NCBI RefSeq assembly: GCF_014274685.1
Contig: NZ_CP060393.1
Span: 2,043,501 to 2,107,500, forward strand
DNA length: 64,000 nucleotides
Direction of reading: 5' to 3'
DNA from: Edaphobacter sp. 4G125
GTDB taxonomy: Bacteria > Acidobacteriota > Terriglobia > Terriglobales > Acidobacteriaceae
Made by a program: the position numbers and the translations under genes. This document shows positions 30,828 to 36,804 of this stretch, piece after piece. The notes below the pieces were generated by a model. That model had not been told where the DNA came from, ran no database searches, and saw only the letters and a program-made list of their open reading frames with translations. The first letter of the stretch is position 1. Every line of letters begins with the position of its first letter.

Positions 30828-32474
30828 CTATGCAATTGCGGCATCGACCAAGGCTTGTGCTTCAGCCTGAATCTGCTTCAGGTGATCCGCACCTTTGAAG
30901 CTTTCGGCATAGATCTTGTAGACGTCTTCTGTGCCGGAGGGGCGTGCCGCAAACCAGCCGTTCGCGGTTGCAACTTTCAGGCCGCCGATTGGTGCATGGT
31001 TACCCGGAGCTTCTGTCAGAATTGCCGTAATTGGTTCGCCCGCAAGTTCTTTTGCTGTGACCTGCGAGGCAGAAAGTTTGCCGAGCTTGGCCTTCTGTTC
31101 CTTGTTGGCAGCTGCGTCGATACGCTGATAAACGGGTGACCCGTATTTAGCAGTTAGCTCCTGGTAGAGCTCTCCTGGATCGCGTCCTGTGCGGACGGTC
31201 ATCTCGGCGGCAAGGAGGCCGGGAATGATGCCATCTTTGTCGGTAGTCCAGACGATTCCGTTCCGGCGAAGGAAACTAGCACCAGCCGATTCCTCTCCTC
31301 CAAAACCGAGCGAGCCGTCGATCAGGCCGTCGACGAACCATTTGAAGCCGACGGGAACCTCGAGCACGGGGCGATTGAGTCCTTTGGCGACTCGGTCGAT
31401 GATGCTGGAAGAAACGAGAGTCTTGCCGATTGCGGTTGTATCCTTCCACTCTGGACGGTGGGTGAAGAGGTACTGGATCATGACTGCCAGATAGTGATTC
31501 GGATTCAGCAGGCCGGCAGATCGAGTGACGATGCCATGTCGATCATGGTCGGTGTCGGAGGCCCAGGCCACGTCATACTTCTCTTTATTGGCGATCATGC
31601 TGGCCATGGCGTATGGACTGGAGCAGTCCATACGGATACGGCCATCCCAATCGAGAGTCATAAACCGGAAGGTGGGATCGACGTTGCGGTTGAGAATCTC
31701 CAGGGGAAGGTTGTATTTCTCGGCAATCCTCGGCCAGTAATGAACTCCTGCACCTCCAAGCGGATCGACGGCGAGTTTGAGCTTCGTCCCATGTAAAACA
31801 GAGAAGTCGATCACGTTGGTCAGGTCGTTTACATAAGCGGTGATGTAGTCGTGCCGATAGGTCTTGTCAGCGCTCAGCGCACGAGCGTATGAAATGCGTT
31901 TAACATCCTTCAGGCCGCTCGCAATGATCTCGTTGGCGCGGTTCTCAATCCATTTTGTGGCGGCGGTATCGGCAGGTCCGCCATGGGGAGGGTTGTATTT
32001 GAAGCCGCCATCCTCTGGAGGATTATGAGAGGGTGTGATCACAATGCCATCGGCACGGTGCAGCTTCGGATTGGCATTGTGAGTCAGGATCGCGTGAGAG
32101 AGCACAGGCGTTGGCGTGTAGCCCAGATGTTCGTCGATCATGACTTCAACGTTGTTGGCGGCGAGAACCTCAAGCGCAGTGGTGAAGGCAGGCTCTGAGA
32201 GAGCATGGGTGTCACGGGCAAGAAACAGAGGCCCAATCGTATGCTGGCCCGTGCGATATTCAACAATCGCCTGCGTAATTGCAGCGATGTGATCGTCATT
32301 GAACGATGCGGCAAATGCCGAACCGCGATGCCCAGAGGTTCCGAATGCAACCTTTTGCGCTGGCACGCTGGTATCGGGATGAAGCGCGTAATACGCGGTG
32401 ATGAGGCGAGGGATATCTACAAGGGTATCGAGCGAAGGAAGGTGGCCAGGTTGATTGCGATCAGATGAACTCAT
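30828..32474 (-). CDS. pgm: Phosphoglucomutase (alpha-D-glucose-specific)
   Basis: Interconverts glucose-1-phosphate and glucose-6-phosphate. Hallmarks: GTSGHRGSAF, the phosphoserine loop ITPSHNPPEDGGFKYNPPHG, the metal loop SDTDHDRHGIV, and the phosphate loop ARPSGTEDVYKIYAESF. The start at 32474 gives 548 aa and an N-terminus that aligns with E. coli Pgm (546 aa); an in-frame start 26 codons upstream is rejected. The sequence and C-terminal layout match the Pgm rather than the PgcA/ManB branch. Confidence 0.95.
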   Translation of the reverse strand: MSSSDRNQPGHLPSLDTLVDIPRLITAYYALHPDTSVPAQKVAFGTSGHRGSAFAASFNDDHIAAITQAIVEYRTGQHTIGPLFLARDTHALSEPAFTTALEVLAANNVEVMIDEHLGYTPTPVLSHAILTHNANPKLHRADGIVITPSHNPPEDGGFKYNPPHGGPADTAATKWIENRANEIIASGLKDVKRISYARALSADKTYRHDYITAYVNDLTNVIDFSVLHGTKLKLAVDPLGGAGVHYWPRIAEKYNLPLEILNRNVDPTFRFMTLDWDGRIRMDCSSPYAMASMIANKEKYDVAWASDTDHDRHGIVTRSAGLLNPNHYLAVMIQYLFTHRPEWKDTTAIGKTLVSSSIIDRVAKGLNRPVLEVPVGFKWFVDGLIDGSLGFGGEESAGASFLRRNGIVWTTDKDGIIPGLLAAEMTVRTGRDPGELYQELTAKYGSPVYQRIDAAANKEQKAKLGKLSASQVTAKELAGEPITAILTEAPGNHAPIGGLKVATANGWFAARPSGTEDVYKIYAESFKGADHLKQIQAEAQALVDAAIA

Positions 32475-32797
32475 CGAAGATACATATCCTTTGTCTGTTG
32501 AACTTCTCACCTCTGAGATGCGAGGCAAAAGAGAAGGCCGAGTCGAATCCAAAATAGAACTTTTTAGATGCAGGGATACTACGGAAGTTGTAGCCGTTCT
32601 AGTTGTATTTCCGTGTGACCTGTCCTAAAACGAGGGTACTCCCAGTTTTCTGTTTCATGAGTTGCTGGTTTATCGCCGGCGATGGCAACGTGCATTGCAG
32701 AGTTTGGATCGTTGTTAAAGCAGACAGCCCTCTGTCAGTTTAGATGAGCTGCGGAGGGCGCTGGCGAGAATCTTCAAGAAGGTGCGTTCGAGTCCTG
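32475..32797. promoter_or_regulatory. Divergent intergenic region pgm/collagen-like gene
   Basis: About 320 bases. It contains the perfect palindrome ATCGCCGGCGAT at 32672-32683 and a small hairpin GACAG-CCCT-CTGTC near 32725-32738. No clear promoter pair was identified. An in-frame start for the downstream gene lies 54 bases before the chosen one. Confidence 0.45.
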
Positions 32798-34756
32798 ATG
32801 TTTCGGTGGTGGACGGGGTTCCTGATACTACTTCTCTCGGTCCATGCATCGGCCATTGAAGCAACATTAGTAGCAGACGCACATATTAATTCGGCCCGAC
32901 CAACCGCAAATAGCGGAACTATTTCGAATCTGAATGTAGGAGGCGGATATACAACCCTCCTTCAGTTTGATCTGGGGACTCTGCCGACAGGGACTACAGC
33001 TTCTCAGATCTCCCGAGCAGTACTTCGACTCTTTTGCAATCGAGCGGATGCGCCAGGCATGGTTAACCTTGCTTTGATCAGCGCAGGCTGGGGCGAGTAC
33101 AGCGTTACCTATGCAACACGTCCTGGGTTGGCTGCCCCTGTACAGTCGTTTCCAGTCAATCAAGCCGGAGCCTATGTGACGGTTGATGTAACGCCTTTGG
33201 TGCAGGGGTGGATCGCCGTGCCTTCCGGCAACAATGGCATCGCTCTCACGTCGGATACGGGTATCTTGCAGTTCGATAGCAAAGAAAATGATCTGACCGG
33301 TCATGCTCCTGCGCTTGAGATTCAGCTCGTATCGCAAGGGCCAAAGGGAGATACAGGGGCAACCGGAGCAACGGGATTGCAGGGGGCGGAGGGACCTGTC
33401 GGCCCGCAAGGTCCGATCGGCCTAACGGGAGCTGTTGGGTCCCCCGGGGCGAGAGGTGACACAGGAGTGAGTGGACCTAAGGGGGATATGGGACCGGTGG
33501 GTCCACAGGGCCCCCAGGGACTTCAGGGGGTACCGGGGCCACAAGGAGAGAGTGGTCCTGCCGGGCCAGCAGGACAGCCGGGAATGGGTTATCAAGGAAC
33601 CTTTTCCCTTGTTAAGACCTATTCGTATGGCGATGTCGTCTTCTGGCAGGGAAGCAGTTACGCTTCGCTCGTCAACGGTAATTTTGGAAACGTCCCGACG
33701 ACAGGCTCTGTGTGGTGGGGACCTCTCAGTTCTCAGGGGGCGACAGGTGCTCAAGGGGCAATCGGGCCTCCAGGTCCTGTGGGCATGACCTTTCGTGGTC
33801 TTTACTCTTCATCGGTCACTTATGCGGCTGGTGACGGCGTGACCTACGATGGCGCCGGGTATGTATCTCTGACGAATGGAAACCAGGGAAATCTTCCGGA
33901 CCAGGCTCCTGCTGTCTGGGGAAAGTTTGCAGCGGGAACGCAAGGACCTCCTGGAGTGACTGGCGTCCAGGGAATTCAAGGTCCACAGGGAGTTCAGGGG
34001 CCAGTGGGTCCTCAAGGATCTGTGGGAGCAACTGGACCCCAAGGGTTACAAGGTCCTTCAGGACCGGCCGGAGTGAGCTTTAAAGGGGCATGGTCGGTGG
34101 CGACAAGTTATGTCGCAAATGACGCGGTCTTCTATGACGGCAGCACCTATTTCGCATTCGTGACGAATATTGGAGTGCAACCGGATACCTCCACAACGGT
34201 CTGGGGATTGTTGGCTCAGAAAGGAAGCGCAGGGGCAACCGGTCCGGGCGGGCAGGCAGCTACGGTCAGTGTCGGGACAGTTACAACAGGAGCGCCAGGA
34301 ACTCCGGCTTCGGTGACGAACTCCGGTACTTCTGCTGCGGCGGTTTTCAACTTTACGATTCCGCAAGGGGCAGCAGCCAGCGGCGGGGCAAGCAATGGAA
34401 GCGCCTCCTTTGCATCGGTCTATCACGCGGTTTCATTTACTACGCCGTATTACTCCATCAGCAATACAAACCAGGCGGCGAATGAGACTGCTGCTGTTCT
34501 GACCTGGATTCCTGAGGGGTGTGGGGCAACATCATTAGCAGTCTATTCGCAGCAGGGCAATACTATTACGGTGACGATGCGCATGGGAATACCAGGTTCA
34601 CTTGCGAATACGTCCTTATCCTGTTCGGTTTCCACGGGCTCGAGCTGTACCTCACCGGTCAGCGTTACGATTCCCGCGGGAAACTTCGTCGACCTGATCG
34701 TCACAGGAGCGAACGGAACCTCGGCAGGCGTCTGGACCTCATTGTTGTGTAATTAA
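32798..34756 (+). CDS. Secreted collagen-like protein with DNRLRE and carbohydrate-binding-like modules
   Basis: Large exported protein (652 aa). Signal peptide at residues 1-20 (WWTGFLILLLSVHASA). Residues about 22-175 form a DNRLRE-type domain (ADAHINSARPTANSG, LLQFDLGTLP, VDVTPLVQGWIA). From about 177 comes a Gly-X-Y run of some 28 triplets (GPKGDTGATGATGLQG). Three modules of about 48 residues follow, each with the pattern G-x-[WYF]-S-x4-Y-x2-[GN]-D-x-V-x-[WY]-x-G-x2-Y, separated by further Gly-X-Y runs. They resemble CBM5/12 sugar-binding modules. A C-terminal Ser/Thr-rich domain with four Cys ends in SLLCN. A surface or extracellular fibre is likely. A GH105-type hydrolase follows. Confidence 0.82.
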   Translation: MFRWWTGFLILLLSVHASAIEATLVADAHINSARPTANSGTISNLNVGGGYTTLLQFDLGTLPTGTTASQISRAVLRLFCNRADAPGMVNLALISAGWGEYSVTYATRPGLAAPVQSFPVNQAGAYVTVDVTPLVQGWIAVPSGNNGIALTSDTGILQFDSKENDLTGHAPALEIQLVSQGPKGDTGATGATGLQGAEGPVGPQGPIGLTGAVGSPGARGDTGVSGPKGDMGPVGPQGPQGLQGVPGPQGESGPAGPAGQPGMGYQGTFSLVKTYSYGDVVFWQGSSYASLVNGNFGNVPTTGSVWWGPLSSQGATGAQGAIGPPGPVGMTFRGLYSSSVTYAAGDGVTYDGAGYVSLTNGNQGNLPDQAPAVWGKFAAGTQGPPGVTGVQGIQGPQGVQGPVGPQGSVGATGPQGLQGPSGPAGVSFKGAWSVATSYVANDAVFYDGSTYFAFVTNIGVQPDTSTTVWGLLAQKGSAGATGPGGQAATVSVGTVTTGAPGTPASVTNSGTSAAAVFNFTIPQGAAASGGASNGSASFASVYHAVSFTTPYYSISNTNQAANETAAVLTWIPEGCGATSLAVYSQQGNTITVTMRMGIPGSLANTSLSCSVSTGSSCTSPVSVTIPAGNFVDLIVTGANGTSAGVWTSLLCN

Positions 34757-34866: not shown

Positions 34867-36804
34867 ATGGGGTTGTTTCGAGTTGCGGCTTTTGGATGTG
34901 CCATTGGGTTCCAGGCGATTTGGTGTGCCGGAGCCTGGGCTGAGGGAGCGCTGAAGATCGATCAGCCATCTGCGAAGATGGCTGAATCCGTGATGCGCCA
35001 ATGGCCAAACGGCGTAGTCTCGACACAAAATCATCCATCTGCTTGGGGATATGAAGAAGGTGTTTTATTGGACGGAATGGCCGCACAATGGCACACTACC
35101 GCCAATGGCGACGACTACCGTTACATCAAGGCCGCAGTCGATAAGTACGTCACAGAAGATGGAACCATCAAGACCTATCATGCGGATGCTCACAGTTTGG
35201 ATGAGATTGAGATGGGGCGGTCTGTACTGCTGGTCTATCGTGTGAGCCAGCAGCCAAAGTACTACAAGGCGGCGAAGTTCATTCACGATCAGCTTGCGTC
35301 GCAGCCCAGAACTTCAAGTGGAGGCTACTGGCACAAGCAGATTTATCCGAACCAGATGTGGCTCGATGGCGCTTATATGGCCGAACCGTTTCGCGCCGAG
35401 TATGCCGCGACCTTTCAACAGCCGGAAGATTTCAACGACATTGCCAAGCAACTTCTGTTGATGGACCAGCACATGCGTGACGCAAGAACAGGTTTGTTGC
35501 GTCATGGATGGGACGAATCGAAACAGATGAAATGGGCCGACCCGAAGACTGGACTGTCCCCTGAAGCATGGGGAAGAGCGATGGGGTGGTATGCGATGGC
35601 TCTGGTGGACGTGTTGGACTGGTTTCCAGTCGATCATCCTGACCGTCCTGAGCTTGTTCGTGCTCTGAATCGCGTGGCGAAATCGATTGTGACTTATCAG
35701 GATAAGAAGACGAGTCTCTGGTGGCAGGTACTGGATAAAAGCTCGCAGAAGGGGAACTTTACCGAAGCCTCAGCGAGCTGCATGTTTGTATATTCGCTTG
35801 CGAAAGGCGTCCGCATGGGATACCTTCCGCAAGCCGATCTATCTGCCGCTCGTCGTGGCTGGAGTGCGATTCAGGCTGCGTTCGTGACGGCAACTCCCGA
35901 TGGACTAACAGCCCTGAAAGGAACGGTGAAGGTCGGCGGACTAGGAGGTACACCCTACCGTTCAGGAACTTTCGATTACTACATCGGAGAGAAAACGATC
36001 CTCAATGATGCAAAGGGCATCGGAGCATTTTTGCTCGCTGGATCGGAGATGGCGCAGGCTCCGACAGAAGCTTTGGGGCAAGGAAAAACTGTTCTCGTGG
36101 ATGCGTGGTTCAACTCGCAGACGCGAAAGAATGCTGCAGGTCAGGCGGAGCTTTTCCACTACAAATGGGATGACGATGCCAACTCGGGCTTTGCCTTCTT
36201 TGGCCGCGCCTTTCAGCGTTATGGTGTAAGGCTCGATACGTTAAAAACGGCGCCGACCGTAGCCGATTTAAAGAAAGCCCAGATCTATATCATCTCTTCT
36301 CCAGACATCCCCGCTAAGAATCCTCACCCGAACTATATGGATAAAGCGAGTGGAGATGCGATTGAAGCCTGGGTCAAGGCGGGCGGGGTTTTGATTCTGA
36401 TGGAAAATGATAAGAACAACTCAGAGTTTGAGCATTTCAATACTCTGAGCGAGCGTTTTGGCATCCACTTTAATGCGGTTCTGCGAAATACGGTCGACAA
36501 TAACAACTGGCCACAGGGAACAGTGATGATTCCGAAGGGAACCGGAATCTTCGAATACGCCCACAAGGCATATCTCAAAGAGATTTCTACGATCACTCCG
36601 GAGGCTCCTGCCAAGTCGATCCTGACCGATCAAGGAGACGTTCTTATGGCCGTGGCCAAGGTGGGCAAGGGAATCGTGTTTGCTGTAGTTGATCCATGGA
36701 TTTACAACGAGTACGTGGACCGCAGAAACAACCTGCCATTAGATTTCGATGGGTTTGATGCAGCGATTGATCTGGCGGGATGGGCAGTGCGACAGGCGAA
36801 ATGA
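34867..36804 (+). CDS. Exported GH88/GH105-type unsaturated glycuronyl hydrolase
   Basis: Expected to remove unsaturated uronic acid from pectin or similar oligosaccharides made by a lyase. A signal peptide ends near residue 25 (AGAWAEG). The (alpha/alpha)6 domain spans about 35-380 with catalytic-type MWLDGAYMAEPF (Asp), RHGWDESKQMKWAD, EAWGRAMGWYAMAL, and WWQVLDK. After residue about 400 a separate domain (VLVDAWFNSQTRKN, GGVLILMENDKNN, GKGIVFAVVDPWIYNEYVD) resembles DUF4350/glutamine-amidotransferase-like folds. The 645-aa length therefore exceeds a plain GH105 (about 370). Substrate specificity is inferred from the family only; no polysaccharide lyase is in the window. Confidence 0.85.
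   Translation: MGLFRVAAFGCAIGFQAIWCAGAWAEGALKIDQPSAKMAESVMRQWPNGVVSTQNHPSAWGYEEGVLLDGMAAQWHTTANGDDYRYIKAAVDKYVTEDGTIKTYHADAHSLDEIEMGRSVLLVYRVSQQPKYYKAAKFIHDQLASQPRTSSGGYWHKQIYPNQMWLDGAYMAEPFRAEYAATFQQPEDFNDIAKQLLLMDQHMRDARTGLLRHGWDESKQMKWADPKTGLSPEAWGRAMGWYAMALVDVLDWFPVDHPDRPELVRALNRVAKSIVTYQDKKTSLWWQVLDKSSQKGNFTEASASCMFVYSLAKGVRMGYLPQADLSAARRGWSAIQAAFVTATPDGLTALKGTVKVGGLGGTPYRSGTFDYYIGEKTILNDAKGIGAFLLAGSEMAQAPTEALGQGKTVLVDAWFNSQTRKNAAGQAELFHYKWDDDANSGFAFFGRAFQRYGVRLDTLKTAPTVADLKKAQIYIISSPDIPAKNPHPNYMDKASGDAIEAWVKAGGVLILMENDKNNSEFEHFNTLSERFGIHFNAVLRNTVDNNNWPQGTVMIPKGTGIFEYAHKAYLKEISTITPEAPAKSILTDQGDVLMAVAKVGKGIVFAVVDPWIYNEYVDRRNNLPLDFDGFDAAIDLAGWAVRQAK

Follow-up and report, generated by a model that had tools for sequence, protein, structure and literature searches.

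A conserved acidobacterial collagen-like protein in which Gly-X-Y runs alternate with CBM5/12-fold modules that lack the usual chitin-gripping Trp and Tyr

The bacterial collagen-like proteins Scl, BclA, PclA and Lcl generally carry one collagen region, the stalk, between two non-collagen end domains. A different arrangement has been described for the tail protein Tal of phage BK5-T and of streptococcal phages: a predicted trimer whose short collagen runs are separated by copies of a small beta knob, its length being set by the number of repeats (PMC9692632, PMC9437275). In BK5-T a unit of one collagen-like linker and one '3-beta domain' is predicted to occur ten times, giving a fibre of 140 nm, and in phage C41431 a single unit gives 45 nm (PMC9692632). 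Such 3-beta domains have been likened to half a fibronectin-III domain in PMC9437275, which also describes streptococcal phage fibres in which several CBMs (sugar-binding modules) are joined by collagen-like linkers. EPclA, a collagen protein from an E. coli prophage, forms trimers (PMC3368898). The short tail fibre of cyanophage A-1(L) is likewise trimeric; its joint domain (residues 111-215) attaches to the baseplate wedges, and host binding was observed for its stem-CBD part (PMC10966104).

Two kinds of carbohydrate-binding module are also relevant. CBM5 domains grip chitin by a Y-W or W-W pair, often helped by a third aromatic, and retain a core Tyr and Trp for folding (PMC8449059). In the founder of CBM96, Lys10, 22, 25, 27 and 31, Arg36 and Tyr159 of the alginate groove are essential (PMC9971899). 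An acidobacterial family combining collagen with such modules was not found described in the literature searched; two papers on Acidobacteria in which the word "collagen" occurs apply it to collagen-binding repeats and collagenases (PMC3174227, PMC8841776).

Here the combination was found in a 670-aa protein of Edaphobacter sp. 4G125, encoded in a stretch of 64,000 nucleotides (the window). The features of the gene and its neighbours are as follows.

30828..32552, - strand: divergent neighbour, phosphoglucomutase/phosphomannomutase (Pfam)
32744..34756, + strand: whole open reading frame, 670 aa; likely true start 32798 (Met19)
32798..32854, + strand: signal-peptide-like stretch, residues 19-37, with Ala-Ser-Ala at its end (read from the sequence and hydropathy)
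32861..33322, + strand: DNRLRE/CBM96 domain, residues 40-193 (Pfam PF24517, E 1.5e-16; NCBIfam NF033679, E 5.9e-24)
33338..33589, + strand: collagen run 1, residues 199-282, 28 Gly triplets
33590..33727, + strand: CBM5/12-fold module 1, residues 283-328 (Pfam)
33737..33790, + strand: collagen run 2, residues 332-349, 6 triplets
33791..33928, + strand: CBM5/12-fold module 2, residues 350-395 (Pfam; the copy that was modelled)
33935..34078, + strand: collagen run 3, residues 398-445, 16 triplets
34079..34213, + strand: CBM5/12-fold module 3, residues 446-490 (Pfam)
34223..34258, + strand: short run 4, residues 494-505, 4 triplets
34256..34369, + strand: conserved beta linker (TVSVGTVTTG...FTIPQG), residues 505-542 (alignment of 24; modelled strands, pLDDT 79-93 by blocks of ten)
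34397..34753, + strand: C-terminal head, residues 552-670, jelly-roll-like, with invariant Cys 593, 627, 635 and 669 (alignment of 24, and model)
34867..36804, + strand: downstream neighbour, glycoside hydrolase family 88/105 type (Pfam PF07470, E 9.9e-98)

From the N to the C terminus the order is thus signal-like stretch, DNRLRE/CBM96 domain, run 1, module 1, run 2, module 2, run 3, module 3, run 4, beta linker and head. An earlier note on this DNA had described Gly-X-Y segments alternating with three similar modules and had proposed an HMM search for both. Indeed, Pfam found Collagen in four stretches and CBM_5_12 in three, each above its curated cut-off; the three small modules were 45-46 residues long rather than about 48. 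Met19 (32798) opens directly before the hydrophobic stretch, which resembles a Sec signal peptide; the 19-residue window of highest hydropathy in the protein (1.97) starts at residue 26. A location on the cell surface, as had been suggested, was not borne out further: the signal-like stretch was present, but the 670-aa sequence had neither a second hydrophobic segment (no 19-residue window starting after residue 60 exceeded 1.6) nor a visible anchor.

The Collagen match had E 9.4e-19. In shuffled versions of the 670-aa protein (n=2,000), the longest Gly run was 7 triplets and the mean of the longest was 3.2. The runs of 28 and 16 triplets are therefore far beyond chance, and those of 6 and 4 triplets were unremarkable taken alone. 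Gly phase was unbroken in runs 1 and 3, the X position was Pro in 11 of their 28 and 7 of their 16 triplets, respectively, and relatives had collagen runs of similar length to these two. Uninterrupted Gly-X-Y beyond chance places the protein with Scl, BclA, PclA and Lcl, with which it shares a collagen stalk and non-collagen ends. In contrast to their single collagen region, the family described here has 2-8 knobs of the same fold inside the stalk.

The modules matched Pfam CBM_5_12 (PF02839) with E 3e-8 and 34 bits, against a cut-off of 26.2. An AlphaFold2 model of module 2, built from an alignment of 31 of 147 modules chosen for diversity (A1), had a pLDDT of 97.4. Its top VIA match, at Z 9.0 with an rmsd of 0.7 Å over 45 residues and 33% identity, was the tail fibre of cyanophage A-1(L), tied by VIA's own rule with S. 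griseus chitinase C (2d49, Z 8.2). The chitinase A1 domain 1ed7 scored Z 5.6, and the other matches listed included chitinase and deacetylase modules, then phage tailspikes and fibres and Anabaena injection-system parts. Foldseek E-values were all above 0.001, as can be expected at 46 residues. Because the structural matches include chitinase C and other chitinase/deacetylase modules, the module is considered CBM5/12-like. The prediction could have shown otherwise, yet single-chain module 2 came out with the CBM5/12 look that the earlier note had ascribed to it from sequence, and the modules share with 1ed7 and 2d49 both the fold and the core Tyr/Val/Gly/Tyr/Pro/Trp pattern. In A-1(L), with the chain taken as the short fibre by its name, the module-matching stretch (residues 138-183) falls inside the baseplate-binding joint domain.

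The residues that would grip sugar were followed in 139 modules from 25 complete proteins, the other 8 of the 147, from paralogues, being left out. Judging from residue numbers, the aromatic pair of CBM5 would lie in the loop that joins the third core Tyr to the conserved Pro; for the chitinase A1 domain 1ed7, we take its single Trp to be the residue needed for chitin binding, a residue that none of the papers listed in a literature search named. The corresponding loop of the family modules, Tyr24-Pro36, contained Trp in 0/139, Tyr in 0/139 and an adjacent aromatic pair in 0/139; Phe occurred in 9/139, two of these being modules 1 and 3 of the 670-aa protein. The position matching the 1ed7 Trp was Asn in 85/139. 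CBM5/12 chitin binders carry a loop Trp or Tyr, whereas all 139 family modules have neither, and neither the loop pair nor the single Trp of a known-type binder was found among them. Core positions were kept (Tyr11, Pro36 and Trp43 each in 139/139; Tyr24 in 133/139). Given the absence of Trp and Tyr from the gripping loop, binding of chitin in the usual CBM5/12 manner is unlikely, and the sugar-binding role first proposed for the modules is not supported. Against this, aromatics that may be exposed were present in 139/139 at position 1 (Tyr or Phe) and position 5 (Tyr, Trp or Phe); position 1 has no equivalent in the chitinase A1 domain as aligned. Another ligand may be bound, or another face of the module used. 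Within the loop, N31 (121/139), G33 (122/139) and N34 (85/139) were conserved.

The DNRLRE domain reported ahead of the modules was recovered by both profile libraries, the CBM96 profile covering nearly the whole domain; a sequence search for solved relatives gave a best E of only 0.34. Unlike the CBM96 founder, with its five essential Lys, one Arg and one Tyr, residues 40-193 (154 residues) contained one Lys and five Arg by plain count. With a single Lys in the domain, the five groove Lys of the founder cannot be kept.

At the other end, the Cys-containing C-terminal domain of the earlier description proved to have four Cys, invariant across 24 aligned heads (alignment A3; a second alignment, A4, held 9 segments). 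Linker and head were modelled together as 166 residues with a mean pLDDT of 74. Model residues 41-77, among them the first 30 of the head, fell below 50, and the remainder was mostly beta. For the head, the first Foldseek rows were mostly TNF-family chains with TM 0.3-0.5 (at most 0.50). Among the VIA matches listed, CBM36, CBM6, 4-1BBL, APRIL, Cbln1 C1q, the F-BclA tip, nucleoplasmins and other jelly rolls scored Z 6-7, where a Z below 8 may reflect just a common arrangement. XepA, the top VIA row for the head (Z 8.9), was set aside for its rmsd of 12 Å. The sequence search for solved relatives of the head returned a single match with E 0.65. On the model, the head is likely to be a jelly roll, and a trimeric TNF/C1q-type head is plausible.

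Genomes were also scanned with a pattern taken from the beta linker, not from the module, and the best 80 of 129 confirmed places were kept; these loci overlap the genomes searched below. The scan is no census of the architecture, since it starts from the linker and retains only the best 80 of 129. At 46 of these 80 loci a module lay in a frame that also had at least 4 Gly triplets, and at 40 at least two modules had collagen between them. The linker itself (TVSVGTVTTG...NFTIPQG) is widespread: records named Oscillospiraceae, Lachnospiraceae, Verrucomicrobia and others were also hit, and 33 of the best 80 of 129 loci had no module in any frame.

Among 61 genomes searched (own, genus, order and class), some match to the protein was found in 39. 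Within the genus 35 of 37 genomes had a match, strong in 33 of 37 (best E at most 3.4e-62); a single weaker match was found in each of G005 and G016, and none in G003 or G004. As most relatives carry the same gene, it is considered a conserved, genuine protein. Going by named records that contain a part of the protein, the family belongs mainly to Edaphobacter, Granulicella and further Acidobacteriaceae, and Geothrix has more distant cases of modules with collagen. A module of this type was present in 31 genomes of a phylum sample of 297, own genome included. In another genome, G254, the 14 listed module matches all fell in a single open frame of 2,029 codons (G254:C7), and an open frame of 1,983 codons (G177:C3) had 7.

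The 139 modules were distributed over the 25 complete single-frame proteins (that of the window and 24 others) at 2-8 each: seven proteins had 8 modules, five had 7, four had 3 and three had 2, and the counts 6, 5 and 4 were each found in two proteins. Eight of the 32 strong relatives (G031, G034, G007, G006, G035, G008, G027 and G019) were left out of these counts because the frame was split or cut by a contig end. Module number thus varied while the head, in the 24 sequences aligned, stayed conserved. Recent copying of modules inside one protein did not dominate: for 46 of the 139, a sister module of the same protein was closer than the median best match elsewhere, and last modules best matched last modules in 374 of 600 comparisons. 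In two relatives (L036 and L054) the gene was spread over more than one frame, through either sequencing error or decay.

Paralogues of the protein lie at other genomic places in G033, G001 and G036 (L069, L070 and L071); they have collagen, 2-3 modules and a different C-terminal end, and DNRLRE/CBM96 was confirmed by Pfam in L069, the one scanned. In the genome of the window itself, a further frame (L068:9192-10271, G000:C1 about 1,015,191-1,016,270) joins a GDSL-type hydrolase to a single CBM5/12-like module and 13 Gly triplets; its start reads as lipoprotein-like.

The position of the gene was also conserved. The phosphoglucomutase gene adjoined it on the opposite strand in 25 of the 29 relatives with at least 600 nt upstream; among the other four, its frame overlaps the collagen gene in G008 and was missed by the distance rule. 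Downstream, 29 relatives had at least 600 nt of DNA, and in 12 of these the GH88/105 gene came next; it also did so in one with 594 nt, which makes 13 of 32 overall. In the other 17 of the 29 it was not found adjacent. Its presence as next gene in 13/32 fits a role with plant polysaccharide, but at 12 of 29 plus the one with 594 nt, a link to pectin with GH88/105 as a core partner was rejected. Other neighbours were signalling genes, as read from their translations. The collagen gene thus lies beside phosphoglucomutase and GH88 genes that recur in relatives, and not among phage tail genes.

The same plan nevertheless occurs in phages. Records matching the 670-aa protein numbered 45 of 50,697, and three of the four phage proteins examined combine collagen with CBM5/12-like modules. 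Pseudaeromonas phage KLEP7 gp195, truncated where the stretch examined ends, carries weaker modules besides five that score above 23 bits; short collagen runs precede the first of the five and occupy three of the gaps. In Escherichia phage UPEC06 (QUL77272) one module is flanked by two long collagen runs, and in Streptomyces phage Saftant (gp22) one module is flanked by two runs; the fourth, a Rhizobium phage protein, has two modules without a run of four triplets. All three resemble the 670-aa protein in placing collagen runs beside CBM5/12-like modules. They differ in that they reside in phage genomes and have C-terminal parts that look different, whereas the gene in the window lies on the chromosome, is present in most of the genus, and encodes a DNRLRE domain behind a signal-like start.

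BK5-T ORF18 contained 11 runs of 5-8 triplets. The module profile found nothing in it even at E 100, and Pfam found no CBM_5_12; BK5-T works alike but is thus no sequence relative, and Tal is a phage tail protein, whereas the 670-aa protein is of an exported type by its signal-like start. With the alternation present at 40 of the best 80 of 129 linker loci and in some phage proteins, and with phage tails of collagen and small knobs already published, the rarity implied by the earlier note did not stand.

We propose, with an even chance of being right, that the protein is an exported, rod-like homotrimer in which the knobs are mainly spacers, attachment is mainly by the end domains, and the modules are not usual CBM5/12 chitin binders. 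Three chains would start zipping at the C-terminal linker and head, and each long Gly-X-Y run would form a triple helix. At every module the three chains would fold into three copies of a compact knob. As folded spacers, the knobs would hold the chains between short collagen runs and set the length and bending of the fibre, and the CBM96-type domain and the head would do most of the attachment outside the cell. Favouring this model are the tied-best match of the module to the baseplate-binding part of a trimeric fibre, the loop without Trp or Tyr in all 139 modules, the change in module number with the head kept, and the precedent of BK5-T Tal, where the number of units gives the fibre length (PMC9692632). 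Counting against it are the BK5-T knob, unrelated in sequence to the modules, the sugar-binding modules between collagen-like linkers in streptococcal phages (PMC9437275), the weak match of the head (TM at most 0.50; VIA Z 6-7), the invariant aromatics at positions 1 and 5, and the hydrolase gene in 13/32.

The alternative, in line with the earlier note, is a multivalent glycan-binding fibre, in which the modules would bind a polysaccharide (for example plant pectin, the cell's own exopolysaccharide or a fungal wall) through a site other than that of CBM5/12 and collagen would space them for avidity. The fold of the modules, the CBM96-type domain at the N terminus, the several knobs on each chain, the conserved N31, G33 and N34 together with the aromatics at positions 1 and 5, the GH88/105 gene in 13/32 relatives and the streptococcal phage fibres with several CBMs (PMC9437275) all agree with such a fibre. 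We nevertheless rate it as unlikely, if a serious contender: Trp and Tyr are absent from the usual binding loop of all 139 modules, a phage-fibre part that docks to the baseplate ties for best structural match, no adjacent glycosidase was found in 17/29 relatives with enough DNA, and the DNRLRE domain, with its one Lys, cannot keep the five Lys of the founder's alginate groove.

That the gene is a domesticated phage tail-fibre gene now working for the cell, for instance as part of a contractile injection system or a tail-like particle, appears improbable. The protein did match PHROG 5073 'tail fiber protein' (E 7.8e-54, four stretches; module 3 alone, 7.8e-9), phage proteins with collagen plus modules exist, and the module fold matched Anabaena injection-system parts, but part of the PHROG score probably comes from low-information collagen repeat. 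Moreover, the N terminus is signal-like and followed by a DNRLRE domain, the neighbours are a phosphoglucomutase, a glycoside hydrolase and, by translation, signalling genes rather than tail genes, and the genomic place is the same in most relatives; with phosphoglucomutase alongside in 25/29, a recent phage origin is unlikely.

Finally, an exported, non-trimeric, flexible multidomain protein with Gly-X-Y runs as low-complexity linkers would suit the mere 6 and 4 triplets of runs 2 and 4 and the fact that, to our knowledge, bacteria are not expected to make hydroxyproline, but is also improbable given the kept Gly phase and X-position Pro (11/28, 7/16) of runs 1 and 3, the runs of similar length in relatives and the trimeric EPclA of an E. 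coli prophage (PMC3368898).

The protein is real, conserved and unexpected in detail, and falls within known kinds, namely bacterial collagen-like proteins and phage-type collagen-and-knob fibres. More tentatively than the homotrimer model itself, we suggest that the CBM5/12 fold, originally a sugar binder, has become in bacterial collagen a trimeric knob that keeps register and spacing, with length and stiffness tuned by gain or loss of collagen-plus-knob units; that this block is common to phage and cell-made fibres; and that lactococcal phages arrived at an equivalent design using an unrelated knob. Should the knobs be structural, such proteins named carbohydrate-binding from a CBM5/12 match would be mislabelled, and a short collagen run with its 46-residue knob would offer a natural building block for making bacterial collagen materials to a set length. 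Should they bind sugar instead, the binding site must be new for CBM5/12. In both cases the protein is a candidate component of the surface or matrix of soil Acidobacteriaceae.
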